Below are positions 7,564 to 61,860 of a DNA stretch of 64,000 nt, in pieces (the first letter of the stretch is position 1; the number at the start of each line of letters is the position of its first letter). The translations under genes and the position numbers were made by a program. A model generated the notes under the pieces. It was not told where the DNA came from and did no database searches. It worked only from the letters and a program-made list of their open reading frames with translations. This DNA comes from Cliona cf. orientalis (taxonomy: Eukaryota; Porifera; Demospongiae; Clionaida; Clionaidae): contig OZ005706.1 in NCBI GenBank assembly GCA_963930775.1, forward strand, positions 7,246,428 through 7,310,427. The letters are read 5' to 3'.

Positions 7564-10020
7564 ATGATAAAAATTATTCTTCTAGTGAATGTAGCAATCA
7601 TGTTCTTGTTGATACCACTGAATCATTCAGCGGAATCCAATTCAGGTATCATGCTACAAAGTGATCACAGTAACTATTAATATAATATTATATCACTGGC
7701 GTAAGAAGCTGGGGGGCTATAGTCCCCCATTTTGTCAGCCAAGTGAGCCTAGCTAATATTATGGGATGATATTTATTCTACTAGGCCTTGACATCTTCAG
7801 ATTTATGATGTAAAGTCTACTTTCTACTTGACAGCCAAATTAGCATAATAATAGAAGGCGTATTGTGTGATCCAAAAAAAGTTTTTTGCACGCAATTTTA
7901 TGAACAGTCCCCCTATTCAAAAATATCTTCTTACGCCACTGCATATGGCGCTGCCATGAATATCTCAGACGTGGCTTTTGTACAGGTTTCACAGTTCTCT
8001 GGCCAACTAATGGAGATCATGTTTGTTATGGACAAATCATAACTTATAAATGTACTCTATGTGGTGGAGTGGCGACTGTATGGAGAGGGACGGCTTTTCA
8101 ATGTGTCAACGCAGCAAATAGGATTTCTCTCCCTCATTTCACTGACTTTGCATCTAATCGTGGAGAATGTAACAGTGAATCCGGAGAAATTGTGGCTTTT
8201 GGCATACATTCTGCTAATGGCTGCTATACATCTCATGCAAACATCACCATGAGCCGAGATGTTGAAGGAAGGGAAGTACAATGTGCTCTAGATGATGGAA
8301 GAATACAAACTAGCATGTTAATTACGATAGGGAATTCTACCATCCCAACAATAGGTACATTAAGTTAAATTTTATCCCAAGTGGTCCCTTTCCTTAGAAC
8401 AGGTCACATACAGATGTATATAGATATCGTGATGCTTCATGCACTTGTAATTAATTTTTACCATCAGAAAAACCACCTGCTCCCACTGAAGTACGTTTGA
8501 ACACAACTGTCACATCCAGTCAAGAACATCTTGTTTTCTGGTGGGATGAAGTAGAGGTTATTGACCACTACATTGTCAATGCAACTAACTGTGGTGTCTG
8601 TCCAAATGTAACGATCCTACCAACAGCGAGATGCACGAATATTGATGTCAATGGAAAGAGATGTGAATTTTCGATACACTCAGTCATCTGTGAGATGGTT
8701 TCAAATGCCAGTGATCTTGTATCATTTGCATTAAATGGTATTTTATTTATACTGTAACTAATTATTATTATTAATGCACTTATAATGTGTTTGTTTACAG
8801 CTCCTGTTTTGCACATAATCTCTGCTATCCCATGTTATTCATATCCTGGTGATGATCTTATCAGTATTCAATCCAGTTTCATTGAAAGTGTACGTTTTTC
8901 CCAAATTATTAAATGAATAATCAACTGCCATGAAGGTCACGATCACTGTAAACATCTTTATTTAGAATCCACTACGGGTGTCTGAAGGTAGCAATGTCTC
9001 ATACTTGCCAGCTGTGTATTCAATCATGTACAGTCACAGTCACTCTGATTCCACCAGTGGTGATCATTGCTATTCAATGAATGTAGAGTCAAGTTCTCCA
9101 TTATGCACAAGTGGAACTTGTACTCATGTGTTCAATATATCTTCTTCAACCTGCTCTCCTTCTGTTGACTTAAGGCTAGTTGTCTTCGCCAGAAACTTAA
9201 TTGGAAGTAAATCTCTTATTGGACCACAGTTACATGGTAAAATTGAAAGTGTAAGTAAATATTCTTTTAGTTATTCACTTTGGATTTCTTAATAGGTACT
9301 AACAAGCTTGTTAGAATACACTTCAGCCCATCAAATTCTTACATATATTGTACATTTATTAATCGTCAAAATTCGATGAAAATGTGCTCTGTCGAAATTT
9401 ATAATGATGGAGGTTTCAATAATTGTAATATGGAAGCAGCCCAAGGGGCAACAAAATTGAAAAGTGGGAATTCATCTACAACAGATACTGTTACCATTGC
9501 TCTTGAGCCTTTTCAATTCTCTGAAAGATTATGCTTCACCGTTGTTGCATCCGATTCAATAAGACAAGTAGTCGTCAAGGGAACTCTCAACATCACTGGT
9601 CTAGGATCTGATTCAGGTATTATTTTACTATAGCTAATTCTATATGCTATAAGCAGCCTGGGGATAGGGGATGTATATACATCAATCCCTAATGGTATAC
9701 ATATTCTGTGTTTTTGTTTAGATTTAGGAAACTCTGAAGGGGAAAACTTGAAGCTACCTCTTGTTGCTTCTATCAGCTTGGTAGCTTTACTATTAGTAGT
9801 TGGATCATTCAGTTTTGGTATCTTAATTGTGATATTCTCTGTATCCACAAGAGCCAAAATGAAAGTTATTCGTCATTTAGAATCCGAGGTTCTTAGAGCA
9901 AACACTGAAAATGTCACCTATGAACAGATAGACGTAGCTCGTCAATCAATACAAAATCAAGCCACAATATGCACATCAGAGAACATTGCTTACGAACACA
10001 TTAAGATAAGGCAATCATGA
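7564..10020 (+). CDS. G2: Ig/FN3 receptor with tandem ITIM-like motifs
   Basis: Seven exons with consistent phases (7564-7645, 7986-8354, 8468-8737, 8801-8889, 8966-9236, 9296-9616, 9722-10020) encode about 566 residues. Exon 1 is a signal peptide (IILLVNVAIMFLLIPL). Exon 2 is a Cys-rich Ig-like domain and exon 3 an FN3 (NATNCGVCPN). Exons 4-5 form a second FN3-like unit split at phase 0, matching the layout of G7. Exon 6 is a further extracellular module. Exon 7 has one membrane helix (ISLVALLLVVGSFSFGILIV) and a tail of about 65 residues with VTYEQI (Tyr ~534) and IAYEHI (Tyr ~558). Both fit the (S/I/V/L)xYxx(I/V/L) ITIM consensus and are 24 residues apart. Expected to bind SH2 proteins after phosphorylation; ligand unknown. 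One intron is only 59 bp. Confidence 0.8.
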
Positions 10021-15770: not shown

Positions 15771-18700
15771 TTATAGTGTCGAAGTACATGTAATATCATC
15801 CATTTCGTAGTCCTTAGGTAGATTGTTCTGCTGGCCTGTTGTATCCAAATCATCTTCAACTTTTGATTGTTGTTTACTTGGTAATAGATCGATACTCACT
15901 ATAGCTGGTTGCAACAATTTTGATGATGTAGTTAGAGCATGTGGTGGACCTGGTGGTGCAGTCTGTGATGATACCGTTGTAATTGTTGGTAGTGATGATT
16001 CAGCTGGCACATGTAGTTCAAGATGCATAGGTGAAAGGATGTCTCTTGAAAGTTTACTTGTAACTCTGTCATTGCCTATTATAATAAGAAGTTCAGAATC
16101 ACCAAGTATCATACGGTAATATAATAATCAACTTACTGGGAATCCTAGCAGATGATGCTCTTTTAAAACGCTTAATCAGATAATAAATAATACATGATAA
16201 TAATATTATTATTCCTAATAAAATGAGAAACATGATAGTGCATATTATTGTAATAGTAATAATTATCGCAAAAAGATTAGGTCCCTTGCAGAAAAGGTCT
16301 ATATTTTGTAGTGTGTTGGATATTCCACTTCGTCCATAGATATCAACAGCTGATACACTGATATCCACTGATAGGTTAAGGTTGATAGTCACTCTATTAT
16401 ACCGGTATACATCTAAGGAAACCAGTTCATGTAGTGCACTGGGAGTGAATGTCCATTCTGTGTTTGTCACGTTAATAATATTATGTCGAATTCCAGGCCC
16501 TACATGTATGGTCACTTCATAGTGATCGATTACTGTTTCATTGTAGCTGCTTGGTGGATCCCAAGTGATTTTTACTGAACTGCACTGCAGGACCTTGGAA
16601 TTATGCTTAATAAATTTTGTATAGTTAAGATTTTCAACTCTCGCTGGTACCACTGCAGGACAGTCATAGCAGAATAATTCCGTAATTTGTATTGTGTTGG
16701 AAGTTCCATTTTGTCCACAGATATTAACAGCTGATACACTGACAGTCACATTATAATATTTGTTGGTACCCACTGAATAATATGCATCAGATTCTAAGGA
16801 AGCCAGTTCAGATAGTTCACTGAGAATGAGCGTCCATTCTGCGTTTATCACATCAGCATGTTGAATGCCTACAGTCACTTCATAGTGATCAATTACTGTT
16901 TCATTGTAGTTGCTTGGTGGATCCCAAGTGATTTTTACTACACTGCACTCCTTGGAATTATGCTTAAATAAGCCTTTAAGTTTATAGTTAAGATTTTCAA
17001 CTCTCACTGGTACCACTGCAGGACAGTCATAGCAGAATAATTCCATAATTCGTATTGTGTTGGAAGTTCCATTTTGTCCACAGATATTAACAGCTGATAC
17101 ACTGACAGTCACATTATAATAATATTCGTTGGTACCCACTGAATAATATGCATCAGATTCTAAGGAAGCCAGTTCAGATAGTTCACTGAGAATGAGTGTC
17201 CATTCTGTGTTTATCACATCAGCATGTTGAATGCCTACAGTCACTTCATAGTGATCAATTACTGTTTCATTGTAGTTGCTTGGTGGATCCCAAGTGATTT
17301 TTACTACACTAGCACTGCTGCAGTTCACCTTGAAACTAAATAAGTTGTTGAAATTATGATGAGATCGATAATATTTCAGATTTTGGACTCTTGCTGGTAC
17401 CACTGCAGGCAGGCATGGAAAGATACCAAGATAAGTAAATTATTGAGGGGGCGAACCTTCGCTCATAATATTATAGACTTTATTAAATAAAGACCAAGGG
17501 ATGAGGAGCATGCATGATTCATCCCCAGTATGTCGGGAGTTTTACTAGTGTGGCTACAGAATTGTACAGCTAGCTAGCTACTGAAATTAGTAGTCCTTGC
17601 ACCCAGACTATAGGTCTAGCCTTCAATTTTGCTGTAGATACTTGTACTGATGCCTTATCTTTTCTTATTTTCTAGCCGTCTACTTGAATGGAGGCGAGCT
17701 GCATCTTTTGGTGAGCTGCATTTAAAGTCAGCGCGGCCAACGTTGACAATCTTTACCGCAATGATTAAGCTTATGCGCATGCACTATGAGCTAGCGAGCA
17801 CGTATCGCTACATACATACAATTACAAGCATATTACATTATTATTATTACGTCCAGAGTCCCAATTCACAAATCGATTCGGCCAACCGATGAGGTAATTA
17901 TGATGAATAATGATGAAACCTATGATGAAACCTATGATGAAATTATGATGAAATTAGGGTGAAAACTGCTTCAAAATATTTAGCTCACATAACAGGGTGT
18001 TGAGACCCAGAATTTGAACCTAGTGTAGAAGAGATCGTGGACTATCGATGAGATATGGCGATTCTCTCAGTTCGCTTTCTTTGGCAAACTCACACTCAGG
18101 GGGGTGGGATTTCCCTATTCAGTCTAGCACATGGCAGGTGGAGGTCACATCCGGGTCAACCGGCTCGAGCCGCGAGCCCCAATATTCGCGTATACGGAGC
18201 ATGCGCAGTTTGTCAATGTGTCCTAGTTCGAATTATGGCGCCGTATTCATGAGGGACTCTGGATGTAGTCTAAGTTTTTCATTACATGCCCAGTATAAAT
18301 TTACTTTTCTGTGGTTATGAGGTAATTATAGTGTAATGTATGATGAAACCTATGGTATAATCTCTTAGGTAGTCTATGAGGTAATTATGAGAAAATTCAG
18401 GGCCTCCATGGAGCCTTTTTGAAGCTTGAAAATCAGTATATATATAGAGTATCTGACGCATGTATCCAGCGAATACATTACAAGCTGAGTGCTACTTTCT
18501 CTGACAAGTACCGCCGGCCAAACTTCACTTGGCTGACGTAATCCCGTGGATAAATAAAGCTAGCCTTGCACTATATATAGCACGCAAGCTGTGTGCCATG
18601 CCGCGACTAACCCGATATTCAGAAGCTGTATGCATATATGGTGCTGTCGAGTTCGTCTCCTGTGATTGAAAATTGTCAGTGTCGAGGTCTGTGATCGATG

Positions 18701-41489: not shown

Positions 41490-43326
41490 ATGGCGCATCA
41501 GATTCTTGTCTTGTTTCTGATTACTTTCTTAACAGCGGACATCACTAGATTAAGTGAGTAAAACAAAATTAATAAATTGACGTGTCTGCATGCATGCGTG
41601 CAACATAGATAGCTAAATGGTGCAACATTGAAAATGTGGGAGTGGCCTCGGGACGGGCTTATTTATATTTATAAAAGTCATGTCTACCTTTATAGGCCTA
41701 TAGGACGGATTTTTTAATTGCGTTCTAAGTAGCCTCAATGCGATGGTTTCACTGCACTGCTGTATCATTCAGCGTGAATTTAAAAGTAAATATACGAATA
41801 ATAATGTTTGGGGGAATTAGGAGCACTTGTAGAGATAATTTTTATAATTATGAGCACGCAGAATGGATCGAAATACGACAGATAATTTGATTCATGCCTT
41901 AGAATTAAGTTACGATTCCCATATTATGTTTGTGAAGCCATGCATTTGCAATGTTTTCCGCCCACGCGCGCACATAAACGTGACGACCTTTACCCAATTT
42001 GGTCAAAATTGGGGTAATGGTTGCCTGCTTGCATGTATGGCTCTACTATGCATCCAGCTCGATTATGTGGTGGTTTCCGGACAATTATTTTTTTTTCTCA
42101 GCGGCTTAGTGTGTGGTCCTCTTGATTAATGTCAATATGTAGCTAGTTACTGAGGTGAAGGGCATGATGTAGCTATTACCCTGCACTGTATTAATTTTGG
42201 TGTATACACACTTTAAGGTACCATTTAATTGCGTGGGCGTGAGCGTCAGGAATGGCTAATTCAATTAGCGAATCGTGAAGGGGCGTGGCCGAAGAGGCCA
42301 TACGAGTGCTTTTGGTCGAAGGTGGGCGTGTCCAGAATCGGCCAGGGATGATTATGCGCGTGTAATTAGCGACCGGAAGTGGCCCCTGAAGAAAACACCG
42401 GTAATTGCCCACATCAAAGCAAGATCAAAGCATTCTTTCTTAACTATTAACCGCAACGACTTAATTACACAACAAGTAGAAAAAAAAAGCAAATTTAAAT
42501 AATAATATAATTAAATAATCTAATTCATGGGGGGTTTGGGAGCACTTGGGGGGATAATTTTTACATGGACACGCAGAATGGGTCAAAACTAGAATTTTGA
42601 TGGCGGGAAATTTTGATTCACACCTTACAATTAAAGTTATGGCCCTTTGAAGTTTCCCCATATGTTTGTATAGGAAGCCATGCATTTGCAATGTTTCCGC
42701 CCACGCGCTACGTGAGGGGCGGGGCTACGCGCGCACATAGACGTGTCGACCTTTACCCAATTTGGCCAAAATTGGAGTATAGGCTGCCTGCTTGCATTGT
42801 ATGGCTCTACTAAGCATCCAGCTCAACTATATCATGGTTTCCGGACAATTTTTTTTCTGCTTGTTGTGTGGTCTCCTTGAAATTAAACACTAAGTAGAAA
42901 AAAAAAGCAAATTTAAATAATTAAATAAATAAATAAATAAATAATTAAATAATCTAATTCATGGGGGGTTTGGGAGTACTTGGGGACATAATTTTTACAT
43001 GGGCACGCAGAATGGGTCGAAACTAGAGATTTGACCTGAAAGAATTTTGATTCACGCCTTTGAATTGAAGTTACGGCCCTTTGAAGTTTTCCCATATGTT
43101 TGTACAGGGAAGCCATGCGTTTGCAATGTTTTCCGCCCACGCGCTACGTGAAAAACGGGGAATCCCCGTTAGGCGCGCGCACACAAACGTGACGACCTTT
43201 ACCTACTTTGGTCAAAATTGGAGTATAGGGTGCCTGCTTGCATTGTATGGCTCTACTAAGCATCCAGCTCAACTATGTGGTGGTTTTGGACAATTTTTTT
43301 TTCTGCTTAGTGTTCTGGTCTCCTTG

Positions 43327-43357
<31 letters not shown>

Positions 43358-47158: not shown

Positions 47159-49404
47159 TTAAATGTTAGTCTTTGATGCATATGATATGTTTTCATTCAA
47201 ATCCAGCTTATGTTGTTTTATAGTTACATCCTGAATTTCTTCATACGTAGGATCTGGTACTATATACCTGAGCTCTTTATAATTAGTGCAGTGCACTTCA
47301 AACTGAGAGGATCAGTTTCCCAAGTCCCGTCTGCTAGACACACTGTTATCATTTCTTCTACTGGGATAAAACCATTATTGCACTGAAACGTCACCATGAT
47401 TGTTCCTTCCTCTGTTTCACTAACATTTGTAATGGTACCATTACTTGGTGGTGTAGGAAAGGTGCATGTGTCTGCTGTTGTAAAAGTGTTAGGTTATAAT
47501 AATTAATATGACATTGTTATAAAAATTATTACCAACCTTCTACATGTAAAATGTCATATCTGCATGCAAGAATAGCTGGATTTGGAATCCAGCTCTTATT
47601 AGCATAGCATTCACTCGTCATTATCGATTTTGGGAAGAGTGCATCCTTACACCTGTATGTCATGCTTGATCCAGCTGTTGTAGAGTTGTAAAGGAGTGAT
47701 ACATGACTATTAGATATTGGTGCACCACAGTCAGCTGCATGCATGCATGTAAAATAGATAAATCTATAGATCTCTCATAATTATTCAATACAATAATTAA
47801 GGCTTTGAAATTCATGCAAGTGGTCTCAGTATACTATGCATGGTTTCCTTAGTGTGCTTACCTATGCACTCCACGTTTCTTGGATCTGGAATCCATTCCC
47901 CATTACTGCAAATTGCTTCTGATTGTCCGCTAATTACATAGCCAAGAGGGCAATGAAATGTGGCCGTTGAACCATTGAGTGCTGGAAATGATGTGTTCCG
48001 AATCACGATATTATTATGATGAACCTCAGGGTATTCACATTTTCCTGTATAAAATAATCCAGACTCATGCATTAATAGATATCTGTTTCAACTATAATAA
48101 CAACCTACCAAAGTATAATTTTGATGGAAGCATTTGTACTGCCTTCACAATTTCTCGCAGTGATTGTGACATTATACTGAATATTATAGGATATATAGAG
48201 CAAAACATTTGCATTGGATATTAACATTTCATCGAGAGGAGGATCGCTTTCCAAGGAATGAATTATTTTTCCTTTATTTAGTTCCTGTGTCCACTGCAAA
48301 TGGACAAAGGTACTACTCTCTCCAAAAACATGTGATCTAACACTCAACTAAAATGGGCTAGGAGTTCCTAATGATAATAATCATGATAGTAATAATATTA
48401 TCATTATGGAAAGATTTTAAGTTGAACATAATATTCTTTTTTACCAATGCCTACTGTAGTAATGAATGCCATATCTGTACCACTGTTTCCAGCTGAGCAT
48501 CGTACAAGAGTACCATTTAAGAGCGGTGATGATCTTATTGATAATGTGGACATTAAAGGTGTTGTAGAAATCCGAGATAGAATAAAGACACTAGAACTTA
48601 TCTGTACGGAAATTGTTGGCACTGCTTGAGTTGATGAGATCACTTCATTTTCAGATGTGTGACCAGGAACTACTATGATCCACTGAAGAGCAGTGGTTCC
48701 TGTAGCAGTGCATGTAAATTCGATCCTCTCCCCAGTACATGCGTAATATGCATGTGGAGTCAGTATGATTGCTGCACAATAAAATTATAGTGATTATTAT
48801 AACGTCAGCGCATGACACTGCATGCTTGTATAACTGTTGCAAACAAGATGTGAGTGTATGTATCATGAGAATAATCATATTTAATACCTGTACTAGACTG
48901 TTTTGTACATAATAGCGTGTCCATGAGAGTCCCAAATATTCAAGAGAAAACAACCATATTAATACTACAGCATGCACATGCATTCACATGTGCATGCGCA
49001 AGCTGTATATATATATAAGCCCATAATAGCTATTATAGTCTACATGTACTGCATTTGATGGCACTAAGTTAATTTCTTCATACAAAGTGTTCCCTGGACT
49101 TCAGCTATAGCATAATAATAATATTCCTTGACTCTTGCAACAAGCAGGGGTAGCTAATTGTGGATGGTTATCTAGGAGACATGCTCTCGGCCACCGTAGC
49201 CTATATATAGCTAGCTATGATCCTGCCAAACGGTGCAAGCCATAAATAATATAGATTCATCTATATTCATCATTATTACAACTACTTTAATTATCGATAA
49301 CTAAATTAAAAATTAATTTTAATGATAAGTTTACCTGATTTTACAAGACTAGTAGAGAACAATAATGCAAAGACAGCAACAATAAGGGTAGACATAATAA
49401 ACAT
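47159..49404 (-). pseudogene. G6: broken Ig-FN3-sushi receptor with tyrosine tail
   Basis: Recognisable exons, in order: signal peptide 49404-49335 (STLIVAVFALLFSTS); Ig 48771-48445 (CTGERIEFTCTA...VRCSAG); FN3 about 48365-48109 (FVHLQWTQ, NVTITARNCEG); and three sushi domains, 48044-47862 (GEWIPDPRNVEC), 47734-47537 (CGAPIS...SWIPNPAILAC) and 47474-47268 (GTWETDPLSLKC). A tail segment 47255-47159 reads PTYEEI...NENISYASKTNI and stop. Faults: an in-frame TAG near the FN3 start (CCATTTTAGTTGAG), an FN3 end whose donor is one frame off, and no membrane segment at all between sushi 3 and the tail, which are only about 12 bases apart and out of frame. Therefore a pseudogene; it could still yield a short secreted product. 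Confidence 0.65.
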
Positions 49405-49987: not shown

Positions 49988-52900
49988 CTAGCTGTCTGAC
50001 ACGTGTTCTCTAACAATCTTTTCTGCCAGCTCATAGAGCTCGATCTCCTTCAGTGCATCAGCTACATCCCTCCATGTTGGGTTAGTGTGACGATTCCTCA
50101 GCCACTGGTCTAACACCTCAATAATGCACACCTCTGGGGAGTAGCTGGTGTATCTGTCCAACACCTTCTTATCAATCCCTACGACTAGTCCAAACTGATA
50201 CCACTTGGGAGTCACTTGGGACCGAAGCTGAATCAACAAGTTGTCCAAATTTATAGGACAGCTACGAATACTGTGATCCCCTGCAAACATAATTACCATT
50301 ATTTTATAAACACAAAAATATTATACCATTCCCCCACCCCATCCCCATCGATCCATTCCTCGATCTTAATTTTTCTGATTTCTCTCTCTCTCTCTCTCTC
50401 AGATCAGGTTCTAATTTAAGCTAAACAAGTACAGGCATCACAATCATACCCATTATTGCTTCTCTTTCTAGATCTGTATTCCTTGCTGAATCAGATATTG
50501 TTTTTGTTGTTGCTGGTGCATTTTTGGGACGTCCATTCTCAATTTCAGCATACTCCACTTTATCGTCATCCATAAAAATCGAAAATTGATTATTAGTAAA
50601 TCCAGATGATGTGACAATATCTGCGTAAATCAGTGCATCTTCATCCTGCATTAGCAAATTTAATAAAAGTTCATAAACAGCTATATAGTTCAACTGATAT
50701 TATTTAAGGTACCCTCTGAGTGTTGTTGCTATGTTGAGGTGAACAATTAATCTGCATAATGACAACACATAATGTTATGATTTCTCGACAGCATGTGACA
50801 CTGTGTATACAGTGAATTCCAGGCTCACCTGTGTACTGGAAATTTGTGCCGGAATATCATCGAGCCTGCATGATGGATAGACAGCATAGAAAGCTATGTA
50901 TAATATTATAATAATAATATGTTACAAGTTAGCTTACTCATAAATGTTGCTTGTCTTTGACAGTCCACTACGCCATTTCCTTTTCCTCCTCACAATAATT
51001 ATTATTAGTGTCATGATCGTTAATATTGTCAGAATAATGACAATTACACAAAGTGCAATAAGTGTTGTAGTATCAATGGATGACATTGTATGTTTTGGTG
51101 TGAATGATAATGTAGAAGCTGTTATGGCTGATGATAGCAAAGTATCACCAATCATACTACCCACACCATTAATGTCAATGCTTCCTTCAATGACTACCGT
51201 AGTAATATCTGAAACACAAACTGTTAGTTCGAAACAGAATACAACGTTTACTTGACAAGATGGTGTTGGAAGTTGGAAAAGCAGCATACCCCCTGCAGCA
51301 TCATACAATGGTGTGGACGTAATAATAATATTGTTGTTCTCTTGTAGCATTGTATTATTTTGGGAATCTCTGAGTCTACAGTCATCAAGTGTTTCCGCTA
51401 ATCGATAAAGAAGTTTGTATGTTATGTTTTTGGTTGGGGATTGAAGTGGGATGACATAAACAGTGTAGTTCACAATCGAAGCGTAAACACTCACGTTCAG
51501 ATAAGATTCTGCATGCATGCATGTTGACGATACATATTGAGCACAGATAGAGTAAATTAAATACAGTAATAATAATATAATAATAGCAGTCCCTCACTTA
51601 TGACAATGGGCTCAGATTGTGGACCACTTCCAAGAACGTTAGTGGCATGAGTAGTGATGTTGATATCCACAGTTGGAGGGCAGAGCGATAATGAGACATT
51701 AAACTCAAAAATACATTCACTTTCACAAAGAGAGGCTGGTATGGTGCTCAAGCCACATGGAGTGTCATCAGGAGTATCATCATCATAGTAGTTGATGGTG
51801 TAAGAGGTTGGTGATAGATCAATCATGATATTATTAGACAATGCATATGACGATGAATTCTACACAATGCATACACATAAACACAATCATGACACACACA
51901 CTGGTAGCTACACTAGACTGACTAGATTTTAGAAAGTACTAATGCTAAATAGCATAATAGAGGCCAGTGGCCATGGCCCATGGATCATGCAGCTTTATTG
52001 ACTATTTAACTTACTAGTCTGCAGTGAACAGTGGTCAAGTTTCCCCCTGGGTACGAGTAATGAGGAACACAGTTAGCCACAGGAGTATCTGGAACTAACA
52101 TTTGGAAATTTGCCAATCACACACGATGACATTGTAGTAGCTATAGCTATATATTGTACCACAAACCTCTTAGAATTACTGTGAATGGTGAGCTTGCCTT
52201 GCTGGCATTTTCCCCATTGATCATTGTCTGAACGACGAAAGTACACATTTCTTCCTCTGGAGTCAAATCAGACACTTCACATGTTACAGCTGTGAGGTTG
52301 GCGACTGTAGAGGGACACACTCCACAGTTTGTTGCATGGATCTGATAGTGCACGAGGCATGAGGGCTCTGTGATCACTGGGCTCCAGGTAAATGTTAGTA
52401 GTGCTGTCGAGCCAGTATTGGATATGTTGACAGTGATATTCTCGGGAGGGTGGAGATCTAAGCAATTATTCGAGCATGTGCATTCATGTTAATACTAGCT
52501 ATTATTCCATGCATACAAGCACTAATTAGCTAGTTATGATAAATGTAATACCAATATTGAGGTAAGCTGTAATTTCTTCAGTATTGACTCTGTTGCTGGC
52601 TGCACAGAAGTACGTTCCATTATCATTCTGCTTAGCATCACGAATCACCAGCTGGCCACTTTCTGATAATACGGAGATCCGTCCGTCATTGGAGCTACTT
52701 ATTACTCTCGGTGTCTGATCGTAAGTCAGCCTGAGCCTCCATGTGATTGAATCATGATGGAGAGCAGAACAGTTTAACACCACTGTCTCGCACAGCCTTG
52801 CTTCATAGGTCAGCATTGATTCTGTTATGATCTGAACTCCCTCAAATACCATAGCACTGATAGTCTGATTGAGTATGATATTGCTGTCAGTGGCTGCTCG

Positions 52901-53248
52901 ACAGGCGTACACTCCCTCATCTTCAAAAGTACTTGAGTGCACATCTAGTTTGGCTATGTGTACTGACATGATATTATCAAGTTCAAGTCGTCCATGTGAA
53001 CTTGTGACCTCCCCCAGTGTTGGGTGGATCCAGGAGTGGAATGTGTAGGAGTTGTAGTCACAGGATAATGTAAATGAAGCACCAATCTGGACAAGAAGAG
53101 GCCGAGGATAGCTAGTGATGGTGATTTGACCTGAGATTGCAACCAGGAGAAATCATAATAAGAATTAAGTGCAGATAGGCTTACCTTGTGTGAACATCGG
53201 GTGATGCAGTCCGATGATAAGGAGTATCAAAATAGTCATTATCTTCAT
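49988..53248 (-). CDS. G7: two-Ig receptor with ITIM-like motifs and a Death domain
   Basis: Nine exons, all in frame: 53248-53185, 53130-52552, 52457-52167, 52088-52015, 51859-51598, 51508-50938, 50865-50829, 50645-50450, 50280-49988; about 788 residues. Signal peptide (MTILILLIIGLHH); two Ig domains in one exon (SFTLSCDYNSYTFHSW...YACRA; VVLNCSALHHDSITW...GTYFCAAS); FN3 (LTFTWSPV, NATNCGVCPS-like); a split FN3-like unit; a third module; membrane helix (~570-595, LIALCVIVIILTILTIMTLI) with a basic stop-transfer. Tail: SNIYELDDI (Tyr ~612), LIYADI (~633), VEYAEI (~658), then a Death domain (~692-788: WYQFGLVVGIDKKVLDRY, WLRNRHTNPTWRDVADALKE). LIYADI and VEYAEI fit the ITIM consensus 25 apart. 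Joins tyrosine and death-fold signalling in one receptor (inference). Confidence 0.85.
50370..50404. repeat. Short TC microsatellite in G7 intron
   Basis: A (TC)n run before CAGATCAGG. It lies in the intron between the tyrosine-motif exon and the Death-domain exon on the opposite strand. Confidence 0.7.
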
Positions 53249-55093
53249 TGTACACCACTGAGAAAAACTGACGTGACTCTTACTGGAAAATTAAAGTTAT
53301 AATCATATCATACAGCTATAGTGCTCTGATTGAGCAGTCGCTTGTTTTTTATGGCAAACCTCATAAAAGTTTACTGAAGTGGGTAAACAAGAAAATTAAT
53401 AATGAAAGTCTACATCCTATTATGTATAACACAGACAATGCTCTTTTGAATAAACACAGAATTCCCAAACTATTGCATCAGTGACACGGGTACAACTATT
53501 CTATTAATTTTATAATAAACACACAATAATTAACACAGTGTAGCAGAGCAAGTTCCTAACTGTACACTGCTATAACAATATTAGAGTCTACGATGTGTAG
53601 CATAAGATACATTTGGTTGAGTATCAACATCCACAGGGCACTCACGATGTATATTCACTTCCTCATACACAACTAGATCTTGATCTAGATGCCGTGCAGC
53701 TGGTGTCTTTAACGTTCCCTGTAGCTTTGCTCTGGCTCTACACAAGGCAATACTTAGCACAACAACAGCAAAGGCCATCGTCAATAGAACGAGGAGTACA
53801 CTGCCCAGAGAGATGCCAAGATCTAGAGTAGTCACACCAATGAAATAGCCAGCTGCAAAAAATTAGTGAAACTTATTAAAAATTAGCTATGTTACAGTAG
53901 GGATCCTGCTCTAAACTAGTAGAGTAACTCCTTCCCTTTGTAAATTTCTAAATCAGCCCGGCCCTGAAATCATTATTATTCAAGTGATTAGCTTTGACTC
54001 ACTGCAATCTGCACACTGAGGTGTTCTGCCTGTCCAATTCCCATTCTCAGTGCACATTCTGATGAACGTCTCATAACTAGAACCTGTAAAGTGACAACTG
54101 AGACATGAGTATACTGCAATTGCTCCAGCGTTGATGCCAGTGTAGCATACAATCCCATTCTCTATTCCAAGAGATAGAAGAGATTTCATACCACATATCA
54201 ATGTGTTAGATGACGTTAGGTCTAGCTCAGTGCCATCACTAAGATCAGCAGGATTGCACAATACTGCTGTGGGAGATACCGGTGTGACATTGTCTGCGTC
54301 AGAATTATATGAAATATTAAACACCCTTCTTGTCGTAACAGTAAGTGATCAGCCATTTGTCGCAGTCACATGGAAACAATAGGGGTTGATATCATTGGTA
54401 TCTTGCTCAATGTTCAAGTGAATAATTATTGAATTGTTTGTTGCAATTGTGGAATTTTCACTACTGCTTTGTGATAAGTTGCTGCAGTCCTGGCCTGGCC
54501 CAAATACAGCACTACATGACGTGAGAGTGTTCTCTTGCTGATTGTGAAAACTGCATTCGATACTAGACGCAGTCTGATTGAACTCAATGTTGACAAATTC
54601 TTTAATCAGATCTGTGAAGTGAATAATATATACATAGGTGGATAAAATTGACTTGTAGCTATAAAAACCCTCTCTTCCCAAATGAATAAGCTTCTAGATC
54701 CTTGTTTGGATAGTCAATAGTCACTTAATGTTATTTACCTGTGAATTTAATGACTGAGAGAACAGTTTTGTGTCCAACAGTGCTCCCATGAATCAGTGTT
54801 TGAACTGCAAATATGCATGAATCGTTGCCGAATTCATTTTGAGCTATACTACACATTGCAGTTGTCAAGGTTGTATTAATGGGACATGTGCCACAGTTAG
54901 TTGCATTAATATTATAGATAATATCGGAGCACTGGTGACTGATAGCCAGATCCCAGCTGAATGAAATTTCAGTGAAGTTGATGGCAGTATCGTCAATGTG
55001 GATTGTTGTAGCATGAGGCAATAATTCCAGTGACACCTCTATAATAATGTAATGAGGTAGGAACAATAATAATTATTATGGTTATATAATATG

Positions 55094-55415
55094 ACAAGTA
55101 TAAAAACAATTGAATAAAATTGAAGGATGAAGTAGGGATGGCAGGATCAAAAAGTACATAAACAAGATTTGTAGGGATAATCATATCCACTATACATCCC
55201 TACACTTGCTTTTCTCGATTATCATGCACCTAACCATTAAGCACTCTTGACTTGCGTGTGGAAGATATTACTGTTTTTGCACCCCTCAAAAAGCAAGCGT
55301 AGGGATGTAGCTATAGTGGATATGATTAATATCCCTACAAATCTTGTTTATGTACTTTTTGATCCTGCCATCCCTACTTCATCCTTCAATTTTATTCAAT
55401 TGTTTTTATACTTGT
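55094..55415. mobile_element. Fold-back element in G8 intron
   Basis: Left arm starts ACAAGTATAAAAACAATTG and right arm ends CAATTGTTTTTATACTTGT. The arms are about 125 bp each and nearly perfect (ATGAAGTAGGGATGGCAGGA against TCCTGCCATCCCTACTTCAT), around a loop of about 80 bp. No coding capacity. A smaller relic of the arm (GCCATCCCTACTT) lies near 56257. Confidence 0.85.
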
Positions 55416-56303
55416 TTCTGTTCTTTTTTATTGCTCTCAGTATAATCAAGAGTCAATATCTGCTCAAAATTTGTAGCCACGCCCCTATGCCTATGCGATG
55501 AAGCAGGCTGACAAAGAAAGCAACTTTAGGCGGCCGAAGTAGCTACGAGACTCTTCCGTTTAGGGAGAAAATCAAGTTCTAAGTTTTATTGTTAGCAGCA
55601 GCTGATCTGTACCGTGACCTTACCGCTCCTCAGTCGAGCCTTGCGCAGGCTCCATGCTATCCATGATCATTGATCTATCCAGCGGAGAACTAGCGCTGCA
55701 CGCGCTAGCAAGTAGCTCGCTTATGCCTAGTGCCTAGCGCCTTACCGTTCCTCGAGCCTTGCGTTTCATATCCACGATCGATCGATCCAGCAGAGCGCGA
55801 GCACAAGCGCTAGGGAATCGCCGAGGGCGAGGAAGCTGTCACATGACTTCACCATGGCAACACATTCTGAGCATGCGCATTATATCACAAAATGGCGTAT
55901 CAGACACGCCCAGTGTTGTCAATGCGCCGTACACACCCACTATTAAGTAAATGCCAAGATAACGCGAAATTAGCGTGCCACTGCACTGCGCGCTACTAAA
56001 TGGAATGGATTTATACTCAAACAAAGATGAGAGGTCAAGGCAATCTTGAGCTAGCCCTGGAAACTAGAAAGAAAGAAAGATTGACAAATGGCCATTTTTT
56101 GAACATCTGGTTCTGGCATATACAATTGAGTTGATGGATGATCTTGGTCTTATTAGATAGATAATTTGCTGATTTTCACACTTAGAAATTTCATAAAGTT
56201 ACCTATTTTGAGATATTTGGGTATTTGTAATGTATTACATATATGGCATATCCGTGCCATCCCTACTTATAGAGTCTACCGACTCTATGATATTTCTAAT
56301 TAC
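55416..56303. other. Remainder of the large G8 intron
   Basis: Contains a GC-richer stretch (55490-56000) with CGATCGATCGATC and GCGCTAGC units. It is absent from the equivalent G9 intron (about 90 bp), so this is inserted DNA of unknown type. Confidence 0.45.
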
Positions 56304-57330
56304 CAATAATATTGAGGTATGCTGTAATTTCTTCATTGCTAACTGCGTTGCTGGCAGAACAGAAGTACGTTCCATTATCACTCTGCTTAGCGTTACGAAT
56401 CACCAACTGCCCACTTTCTGATAGTACGGAGATGCGTCCGTCATTGGAGTTATTTACTACTCTCGGTGTCTGATCATGAGTCAACCTGAATCTCCACATG
56501 ATTGAATCATGATGGAGAGCAGTACAGTTTAGCACCACTGTCTCGCACAGCCTTGCTTCATAGGTCAGCATTGACTCTGTTATGATCTGAACTCCCTCAA
56601 ATACCACAGCACTGATAGTCTCATTGAGTATGATATTACTGTTAGTGGTTGCTCGACAGACGTACACTCCTTGATCTTCAAAAGTAGCTGGTTGCACATC
56701 TAGTGTGGCTGTGTGTACTGCCATGATATTATTAAGTTCAAGTCGTCCACGTGAACTTGTGACCTCTCCCAGTGCTGGGTGGACCCAGGAATGGAATGTG
56801 TAGGAGTTGTAGTCACAAGATAATGAAAATGAAGCACCAATCTGGACAAGAAGAGGCCGAGGGTAGCTACTGATGATGATTTGACCTGAAATTGCAACCA
56901 GGAGAAATCATAGAAAAAAATTTAAGTGCATGCAGAGATGCAGGCTTACCCTGTGTGAATACCAGGTGATGCAATCCGATCATGAGGAGTATCAAAATGA
57001 TCATTATCTTCATTGTACACCAAGAAAGCAAACTAATTACATTGTGACTCTTACTGGCAAATTAAAGCTATAGTCATGAATGACATTGTACTGTACAGCT
57101 ATAGTGCTCTGATGAAGCAGTAGATGTCAAACCTCATTAGTTCATTGAAGTGTGCACGTGTAACCAAGAGATAATATTGAAAGTCTACATCATGTTACGT
57201 AAAATAAACAATGCTCACTGGAATAAACATAGAATTCCCAAATTATTGCATTAATAAATTATTATTAAAATTATATAAAGCAGAGCAAGTTCCTAGCTAG
57301 CTATAATATTATTATACACTGTTATAACAA

Positions 57331-59556
57331 TTAAAGTCTGCGATGTGTAGCATAAGATATGTTTGGTTGAGTGTCAACATCCACAGGGCACTCACAATGT
57401 ATATTCACTTCCTCATACACAACTAGATCTTGATCTAAACGCTGTGCCACTGCAGCTGGTGCCCTTAACGTTCCCTGTAGCTTTGCTCTGGCTCTACACA
57501 AGGCAATACTTAATAAAACAACAGCAAAGGCCATCGTCAACAGAACGAGGAGTACACTGCCCAGAGAGATGCCAAGAGTAGTCACACCAAATTGAATGAA
57601 ATTGCCAGCTGCAAAAATTAGACGGAGAAACTTATTAAAAATTATCTATGTAGGATCCTGTTCTAAACTATAGTGGAGTAGCTCCTTCCCTTTGTAAATT
57701 TCCCTAAAATCATAATAATATTCAAGTTATTAGCTTTGACTCACAGCAATCCGCACACTGAGGTGTTGTGCCTGTCCAATTCCCATTCTCAGTGCACACT
57801 CTAATGAACGTCTCATAACTAGAACCTGTAAAGCGACAACTGAGACACGAGTATACTGCAATTGCTCCAGCATTGTTGCCAGTGTAGCACACAATCCCAT
57901 TCTCTATTCCAAGAGATAGAAGCGATTTCATACCACATATCAATGACGTTTGCTCTAGATCTGTGCCATCACTAAGATCAGCAGGATTACACGATACTGC
58001 TGTGGGAGATACCGGTGTGACATTGTCTGTGTCAGAATGTGAAATATTAAACACCCTTCTTGTCGTAACTGTAAGTGAGCCGTTTGTTGCGGTCACATGG
58101 AAACAATAGGGGTTGATATCATTGGTACCGTGCTGATCAATGTTCAAGTGGATAATTATTGAATAGTCTGTTACAATTGTGGAATTTTCACTACTGCTTT
58201 GTGATAAGTTGCTGCAGTCCTGGCCCGGCCCAAATACAGCACTACATGATGTGAGCGTGTTCTCTTGCTGATTGTGAAAACTACATTCGATACTAGACGC
58301 AGTCTGATTGAACTCAATGTTGACAAATTCTTTAATCAGATCTGTGAAATAAATAACGTTCATGGGTGGATAAAATTGACTGGTATGAAAAACCTTTTCT
58401 TCCCAAATGATATAAATTAATCAGCTTCTAGATTCTTGTCTGGATAGTCACTTAATGTTAATTACCTGTGAATTTAATGACTGAGAGAACAGTTTGGTGT
58501 CCAACAATGCTCCCATGAATTAATATTTGAACTGCAAATATGCATGAATGGTTGCCAAATTCATTTCGAGCGATACTGCATGTTGCACTTGTCAAGGTTG
58601 TATTGATGGGACATGTGCCACAGTTAGTTGCATTAATTTTATAGACAACATCAGAGCACTGGTGACTGTCAGCCAGATCCCAGCTGAATGAAATTTCAGT
58701 GAAGTTGATGGCAGTATCATCAATATCAATTATTGTAGCATGAGGCATTAATTCCAGTGACACCTCTATAATAATGTAATGAGGTAGGAAGTGCATTGCA
58801 TTGCATTAAGCCACACAATAATATTATTATGGCTATACATGATGTTTCTACTTACCAATAATATTGAGGTAAGCTATACTTTCCTCATTGCTAACTCTGT
58901 TGCTGGCTGCACATACATACGTTCCATTATCACTCTGCTTAGCATCACGAATCACCAGCTGGCCAATATCAGATGATACAGAGATGCGTCCATCACTAGT
59001 GTTAGTTACGAATCTGGGTGTATGACTATGAGTCAACATATACCACATGATTGAATCATGATGGAGAGCAGTACAGTTTAGTACCACTGTCTTGCACAGC
59101 CTTGCTTCATAGGTTAGCATTGACTCTGTTATGATCTGAACTCTCTCAAATAGCATAGCACTGATAGTCTGATTGAGTATGATATTACTATCAGTGGCTG
59201 CTCGACAGATGTACACTCCCTGATCTTCAAAAGTAACTGAGTGCACGGTTAGTGTAGCTACGTGTACTGCCATGATATTAGTGAGTTCAAGTCGTCCCTG
59301 TGAACTTGTGACCTCTCCCAGTGTTGGGTGGACCCAGGAGTGGAATGTGTAGGAGTTGTAGTCACAAGATAATGTGAATAAAGCACCAATCTGGACAAGA
59401 AGAGGCCGAGGGTAGCTACTGACGGTGATTTGACCTGAGATTGCATGCAACCAGGCGAAATTATAATAAGAATTAAGTGCAGATAGATTTACCTTGTATG
59501 AACATCGGGTGATGCAGTCCGATGATGAGGGGTATCAAAACAATCATTGTCTTCAT
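57331..59556 (-). CDS. G9: two-Ig/FN3/sushi receptor, intact
   Basis: Five exons at phase 1 (59556-59493, 59434-58856, 58765-58466, 58341-57745, 57608-57331) encode about 605 residues. Signal peptide (TMIVLIPLIIGLHH); Ig1 and Ig2 in one exon (LFTLSCDYNSYTFHSW...YICRA; VVLNCTALHHDSIMW...YVCAAS); FN3 (ISFSWDLA, NATNCGTCPIN); a further module followed by a sushi domain (ENGIVCYTGN...NGNWTGTTPQCADC); membrane helix (GISLGSVLLVLLTMAFAVVL); tail with VVYEEV (Tyr ~578) and NISYATHRRL (Tyr ~599). VVYEEV meets the ITIM consensus and resembles the Src SH2 site. Only about 317 bp separate it from G8. Likely an inhibitory or adhesion-type surface receptor (inference). Confidence 0.85.

Positions 59557-59920: not shown

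Positions 59921-61860
<1,940 letters not shown>

Follow-up and report, generated by a model that had tools for sequence, protein, structure and literature searches.

Introduction

UNC5 receptors combine immunoglobulin (Ig) domains outside the cell with an intracellular Death domain, and are reported to be phosphorylated on tyrosine and to recruit SHP2 (PMC6080411). Here, we analyze gene A, a predicted receptor gene within a 64,000-nucleotide stretch of the genome of the sponge Cliona cf. orientalis (contig OZ005706.1, positions 7,246,428 to 7,310,427; hereafter the window, in whose numbering positions are given), together with the large gene family to which its tail belongs. Like UNC5, the gene A protein is predicted to carry Ig domains outside the cell and a Death domain inside it, and its tail also contains tyrosine motifs resembling immunoreceptor tyrosine-based inhibitory motifs (ITIMs). 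The initial annotation of this DNA held that tyrosine-motif Ig receptors and Death-domain receptors are normally separate in vertebrates, a view that requires qualification, since UNC5 unites a Death domain with phosphotyrosine-dependent SHP2 recruitment and the two types are thus not wholly separate in animals (PMC6080411). UNC5 differs from gene A in possessing TSP1 and ZU5 domains (PMC6080411). At E ≤ 1, the Pfam matches of the gene A protein include no TSP1, ZU5, UPA or TIR domain and no TNFR cysteine-rich repeats. UNC5 has a UPA domain as well, and we know of neither a tandem ITIM pair nor a large tandem repertoire for UNC5.

Other described receptors share different parts of this layout. 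FcoR of Botryllus and Alr of Hydractinia, both allorecognition receptors, have an Ig superfamily (IgSF) ectodomain (accompanied by Sushi in FcoR), a transmembrane segment, a tail with ITIMs or hemi-immunoreceptor tyrosine-based activation motifs (hemITAMs), and clustered genes; they differ from gene A in that the review describing them contains no occurrence of the term Death domain (PMC12065747). Sponge IgTIR proteins are also sponge Ig receptors with an intracellular innate-signaling domain (PMC12909245, PMC6208332), but that domain is TIR, whereas in gene A it is Death. TNFR-superfamily death receptors are single-pass proteins with an intracellular Death domain, but gene A has an Ig head in place of their cysteine-rich repeats. 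Vertebrate ITIM receptors of the KIR, LILRB and SIRP type resemble gene A in combining an Ig head, a transmembrane helix and tandem ITIMs, with an ITIM spacing similar to that of the gene A family, but to our knowledge have no Death domain. Membership of gene A among UNC5, TNFR or IgTIR receptors is ruled out by the domains missing from its Pfam matches. Of the features of ITIM-bearing IgSF receptors, gene A has the Ig ectodomain and, in two of its three tyrosine motifs, the ITIM consensus. Our searches of the accessible open-licence literature brought up no sponge receptor described as having both ITIMs and a Death domain, nor the combination of Ig, ITIM pair and Death domain occurring as a large family.

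Results

Many members of a large gene family in this sponge are predicted to have a tail in which two ITIM-like tyrosines precede a C-terminal Death domain. When the genome containing the window (149 contigs, 216.8 Mb in total) was searched with the Death exon of gene A, 150 scored matches were recovered from 610 candidates, of which 109, gene A counted, had E<1e-12; a few of the matches contain stop codons. The initial annotation had presented gene A as a single unusual receptor design, and this is contradicted by the size of the family, of which it is one member. Many of the matches lie at 11.0-13.9 Mb on contig C2, and others on C3, C10, C1 and C13. The Death exon of gene A shares 53-63% identity with the 29 next best copies, and these 29 together with gene A make up the 30 loci examined below. 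The stretch on C2 is itself a megabase-scale cluster, containing 44 of the best 100 Death-exon matches, and is a candidate recognition locus.

The three tyrosine motifs of gene A had been proposed to be tandem and ITIM-like. This holds for LIYADI and VEYAEI, which fit the ITIM consensus [ILVS]xYxx[ILV] and lie 25 residues apart, but not for the third, NIYELD, which departs from it with N at -2 and D at +3. A tandem tyrosine pair in one open reading frame (ORF) no more than 1.2 kb upstream of the Death exon was detected in the sense orientation at 18 of the 30 loci (17/29 with gene A excluded) and in antisense at none of the 30, using regular expressions that were composed after the loci had been viewed and were therefore not blind. 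The pair has the consensus LVYADIG...DDDRVEYAxLNH, in which the tyrosines are invariant through the selection of rows. Both motifs fit the strict ITIM consensus, with I, L, V or S at -2, at 15 of the 18 paired loci, and the two tyrosines are separated by 22-31 residues across all 18. Acidic residues precede the second tyrosine (Y2) at every paired locus, with two to five in the preceding eight positions, including E at -1.

Because the tyrosine exon of gene A (exon 9) is too divergent for whole-exon searching, yielding three matches in the genome (itself and two weak ones), short motif patterns were used instead. VEYA[EQ]LNH was found at five places (reversed control 0), all within 0.6 kb upstream of a same-strand Death exon, and LVYADIG at 18 places (control 1), with a Death exon downstream on the same strand within 1 kb at 14, within 2 kb at 15 and within 6 kb at 17. 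Proximity was measured against the best 100 of the 150 Death matches. With uniform placement, the number expected within 1 kb is about 0.001 for the five places and 0.004 for the 18; in the C2 cluster, dense as it is, each place would have a chance of about 0.007. Since both patterns were derived from the consensus of the 30 loci, inside which 2/5 and 6/18 of the matches fall, we also counted the places outside these learning loci, and 3/3 and 8/12 of them have a Death exon no more than 1 kb downstream.

The tyrosine and Death exons appear to be joined in a consistent manner. In all 18 paired loci the best-scoring joint between them is in phase 1, as in gene A, under a scoring scheme that required the phases to agree but not to be 1; the joint in locus L033 has a weak acceptor. 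Locus L012 needs no intron to unite the two parts, as a single uninterrupted ORF holds both tyrosine motifs along with the Death domain. The proposal that one predicted molecule joins Ig domains, ITIM-like tyrosines and a Death domain is upheld for two tyrosines, the intracellular parts occurring together at 18/30 loci. For three pairs of close paralogues, pooled, nonsynonymous and synonymous divergence (dN/dS) came to 0.072/0.177 in the tyrosine segment (33 changes) and 0.047/0.186 in the Death segment (54 changes), so that in both segments amino-acid sites diverge less than silent sites; these pairs were chosen as close neighbors rather than sampled, and the counts are small.

Eight of the 12 loci lacking the strict pair contain YEN[ND], which we take to be a Grb2-type pYxN site, in the sense orientation, compared with none of the 12 in antisense. 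This suggests a subfamily in which the phosphotyrosine docking site may have been exchanged while the Death domain was retained. The other four comprise L020, with a divergent pair; L037, whose two motifs are in different frames; and L013 and L038, with neither. The YEN[ND] loci (L010, L011, L014, L015, L019, L021, L022 and L025) are located at 4.24-4.36 Mb on C3 and 11.87 Mb on C1.

Exon 10 of gene A (49988-50280), which carries the stop codon, is a predicted member of the Death-domain superfamily, with the six-helix death fold in its model. Pfam Death scored 17.1 bits against the whole protein and 22.2 bits (E 1.5e-4) against the exon alone, and at E ≤ 0.01 it matched 26 of the 30 family members, with any other Pfam family matching at most one; NCBIfam gave no matches for the 30. 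As sequence evidence from the PDB was weak, a fold search was employed. The AlphaFold2 model of the exon alone, predicted from the single sequence, has six helices with a mean predicted local distance difference test score of 74.8 in the best of five models. When it was compared with the PDB by Foldseek, ranks 1-36 among the 50 matches listed (of 93 at E ≤ 10) were described as Death-domain structures, including FADD, Fas-FADD, ankyrins, RIPK1, TRADD, TNFR1, UNC5H2 and others, with probabilities up to 1.00 and query TM-scores up to 0.76. The best fold matches were FADD and Fas-FADD complexes, ankyrin Death domains also ranked high, and UNC5H2 was 33rd. The C-terminal Death domain of the initial annotation is thus borne out by a Pfam match just below the cut-off, by its relatives and by the structure prediction that had been suggested as a check, made here on the Death exon. 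A viral origin was considered as well, but tblastn of the Death exon and of the family alignment against viral contigs found no relative, so nothing points to such an origin.

In the rebuilt exon model, gene A runs from 53248 to 49988 on the minus strand, on which every exon was anchored, and comprises ten exons with GT...AG borders throughout and phases that agree. The single frame joining Ig, FN3-like, transmembrane, tyrosine and Death segments that had been proposed was recovered with exactly the same outer coordinates and the same 50450/50280 junction, but it encodes 803 amino acids rather than 788, ending with a stop at 49988. Exon 1 (53185-53248) supplies the start codon and a signal peptide judged by eye, with an ATG frame and a GT donor in phase 1, and matches exon 1 of the neighboring gene C at 74% of amino acids. 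Exon 2 (52552-53130, phase 1-1) encodes two Ig domains. It is followed by exon 3 (52167-52457), an FN3-like module of the NCGxCP type that resembles modules upstream of other Death exons; exon 4 (52015-52094), placed by splice borders and phase as the start of a second FN3-like module; and exon 5 (51598-51859), the remainder of this module, which matches loci L047 and L048. Exon 6 (50938-51508) contains the membrane-proximal part, the transmembrane helix and NIYE, and ends in phase 2. Two short exons were placed by splice borders and phase alone: exon 7 (50829-50865, 37 nucleotides) completes NIYELDDI and by eye resembles VVYEEIDELQQIP from a gene in L047, and exon 8 (50713-50751, 39 nucleotides, phase 0-0) is possibly optional. 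Exon 9 (50450-50645) carries the tandem LIYADI and VEYAEI and is the recurring paired exon of the genome-wide motif scans.

The predicted ectodomain contains both of the Ig domains originally claimed, each passing the Pfam cut-off (Ig_3 1.1e-13, I-set 9e-12, V-set 3e-10). For FN3, Pfam gave no match to the gene A protein at E ≤ 1. A family profile of the first FN3-like module gave 13 PDB matches at E ≤ 1, of which ten were FN3-bearing chains, among them contactin, fibronectin, Robo3 and RPTP-eta; these matches are weak (best E 0.0064), and the profile of the second module gave an ambiguous result. The best 20-residue window of the transmembrane helix in exon 6 has a mean hydropathy of 3.34.

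Higher in coordinates, and 5' of gene A on the minus strand, lie two related genes whose bounds were taken from ORFs. Gene B (53581-57013, minus strand) has the same Ig head, a Sushi domain, a transmembrane helix and a tail of the form VVYEEV...NVSYATHRRL, and gene C (57331-59556, minus strand) has the same head and the tail VVYEEV...NISYATHRRL; neither has a Death domain. Both match Pfam Ig, and Pfam Sushi scores 22.1 bits in gene B, over the cut-off of 20.7, and 15.0 bits, below it, in gene C. The Ig-Ig exon of gene A is 83% identical at the amino acid level to that of gene B and 80% to that of gene C, and the signal-peptide exon is similar. At the DNA level, genes A and B share 84% identity over a segment (52535-53478, minus strand) extending from upstream of the gene A start codon to 17 bases past exon 2, where the similarity stops, with none beyond it except for the overlap of the test segments. 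Across the genome, exon 2 has four matches at E ≤ 0.001, namely genes A, B and C and one place on C17, and a comparison of the Ig head with seven family loci gave nothing below E 2.5. The N-terminal head of the family, of the CPG...W...C type, is not present in gene A, where the B/C Ig-Ig head stands in its place, while the similarity of exons 3-10 is to Death-family loci such as L047.

Because the similarity to gene B ends just past exon 2, exons 3-10 resemble the Death family and the head occurs in four places genome-wide, it seems best to regard gene A as a recombinant that combines the promoter, signal peptide and Ig-Ig head of the B/C type with a Death-family body. The swap would most simply have occurred by recombination within the phase-1 intron after exon 2. 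We therefore claim family membership for the body and tail of gene A only, its head being of the B/C type. Gene A had been suggested to represent an ancestral or lineage-specific design; as its Ig head was apparently acquired locally by exon shuffling, its pairing of Ig with Death is more likely to be lineage-specific, and the ancestral option loses ground.

The heads of other family members were compared separately. Pfam Ig matched none of the four paralogue heads scanned at E ≤ 0.1. A profile built from seven heads, six from family loci and one from gene D of the window (described below), matched 26 PDB chains at E ≤ 1 (best E 0.0017), of which 25 are Ig-fold by name (antibody, nanobody, variable domain of new antigen receptor (VNAR), FGFR2 or SIRP alpha) and one, 230AL-26, is unclear. 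Since Pfam Ig fails and the PDB profile matches are weak, we term these heads Ig-like only.

A potential partner for the tyrosine pair is encoded in the same genome, which contains at least 103 SH2 matches and at least 186 tyrosine-phosphatase matches. At C8:9936138-9938107, an SHP2-like gene presents two SH2 domains and a tyrosine-phosphatase domain with HCSAGIGRTG in one 2-kb row, and the stretch bearing the second SH2 matches PTPN11 at 1.7e-60. SH2 and tyrosine-phosphatase matches also share a strand at C4:7450163-7460998 and C4:7510920-7513694, possibly marking extra SHP-like genes.

Several other features were observed. A putative gene D occupies 47159-49395 of the window and forms part of a tandem array that includes the Death-tailed gene A; like genes B and C it is Death-less, with a tail of the form [VT]YEE[VI]...SY. 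Similar Death-less tails lie upstream of Death-tailed genes in L047 (VVYEEIDE) and L052 (PIYEDLLP), and the occurrence of Death-less genes beside Death-tailed ones is a possible paired-receptor arrangement. On the plus strand, 8482-9229 encodes modules 26-36% identical to exons 3 and 5 of gene A, perhaps another member of the superfamily. A 91-nucleotide inverted repeat (55094-55184 and 55325-55415; 98% complementary, 140 nucleotides apart), resembling a miniature inverted-repeat transposable element, sits between the Ig exon of gene B and its next ORF. The window also contains tandem repeats at 16511-17316 (period 363, 2.2 copies) and 42496-43345 (period 434, 1.9 copies) and long TC/CT dinucleotide runs at 60482-60631 and 61511-61670. 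Elsewhere in the genome, CGASYAF, presumably the silicatein active-site signature, is encoded at three places on C12, with the Cys form at a fourth place on C19 (reversed control 0); together with the animal-type genes of the genome, this suggests a demosponge.

Discussion

Based on the data presented above, it is probable, in our judgment, that the product of gene A is a type I membrane receptor in which a head of the B/C type is joined to a family tail that pairs an ITIM-like, SHP2-dependent brake with a Death domain. In such a receptor, the head would bind a ligand, whether self, non-self or microbial, and Src-type kinases would phosphorylate the two tail tyrosines. Through its two SH2 domains, the SHP2-like phosphatase could then dock on the tyrosine pair, 22-31 residues apart, while the Death domain would assemble with partners resembling FADD, RIPK or IRAK. 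If the phosphatase arm restrains or tunes this assembly, one tail would be both trigger and brake. The initial suggestion that a single protein could read both phosphotyrosine and death-fold signals would fit this scheme, which we infer from domain content.

A number of observations weigh against this interpretation. SHP2 binding and the inhibitory character of the tyrosine arm are putative, and the acidic residues before the tyrosines would also be compatible with an activating, hemITAM-like role. The strict pair is missing from 12/30 Death loci; a looser, generic ITIM expression gives a weaker strand contrast over the same loci (16 sense, 4 antisense); and at four of the 18 LVYADIG places the listed Death exon is more than 1 kb away, at 1.7, 4.2, 5.7 and 99 kb. 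The Death exon falls 0.4 bits short of the Pfam cut-off of 22.6, and all Foldseek E-values for its model are 0.06 or higher. In sequence searches of the PDB, the family profile gave no significant Death match (RIPK1, third of four, had E 0.42), and the single sequence gave no Death match but one unrelated chain, 6dtd, at E 0.2. Within gene A, exons 7 and 8 are supported by splice consensus only.

The acidic residues preceding Y2 at all 18 paired loci are a reason to consider a tail of the opposite sign, in which the DEDALIY and DDDKVEY tyrosines recruit Syk-like kinases and act with the Death domain as co-operating activators. Botryllus FcoR carries hemITAMs together with ITIMs, and the same motifs are reported for Hydractinia (PMC12065747). 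We nevertheless regard an activating tail as doubtful, though well worth keeping in mind, given the residues at -2 of both motifs in 15/18 loci, which are a mark of ITIMs, and the distance between the tyrosines, which at 22-31 residues is too long for a classical immunoreceptor tyrosine-based activation motif. It is also unlikely, and slightly more so, that gene A is an adhesion or guidance receptor in the manner of UNC5, whose Death domain would serve in scaffolding or trafficking and whose phosphotyrosine would regulate adhesion, with no role in immunity or cell death. Phosphorylation of UNC5C reportedly recruits SHP2 (PMC6080411), and the high rank of ankyrin Death domains among the fold matches would also be in keeping with such a function. 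TSP1, ZU5 and UPA are however absent from the Pfam matches, the UNC5H2 Death domain ranks far down the fold matches, and the family numbers over 100 divergent, clustered copies. Repertoires of this kind are more typical of recognition systems.

Two further explanations were considered. The tyrosine and Death exons could be used in alternative transcripts, so that few or no molecules contain both, and retention of the intron after exon 6 would indeed produce an immediate stop after NIYE; yet the phase-1 joint scores best at every paired locus, and L012 has both parts in its uninterrupted ORF, so we hold this to be very unlikely. A functionless gene A, whether a chimera in decay or one formed by accident, appears at least as improbable, if not marginally more so: its recombinant structure and the sub-threshold Pfam score of its Death exon would be explained, but it has ten intact exons with GT/AG sites, an 803-amino-acid frame, and both ITIM-like motifs preserved. 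We therefore retain the reading of gene A as a receptor whose tail joins a putative phosphatase-recruiting brake to a Death domain.

More tentatively, it is conceivable that many dozens of surface receptors in this sponge form a repertoire with one standard tail, made up of an ITIM/SHP2-type brake and a death-fold trigger, whose heads (Ig, FN3-like and Sushi) are swapped between tail types by phase-1 exon shuffling and whose Death-less VYEEV...SY sisters act as paired receptors. ITIM-type motifs on recognition receptors are reported for cnidarians, tunicates and mammals (PMC12065747), and a demosponge family with ITIM pairs would move this logic towards the animal root. With an ITIM pair and a Death domain sharing one tail, it could be tested directly whether a phosphatase brake acts in cis on death-fold assembly, and the chimeric gene A illustrates how receptor heads and tails may be reshuffled. 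If the repertoire is as proposed, self/non-self recognition at the base of the animals would bring together two signaling currencies mostly kept separate in vertebrates.

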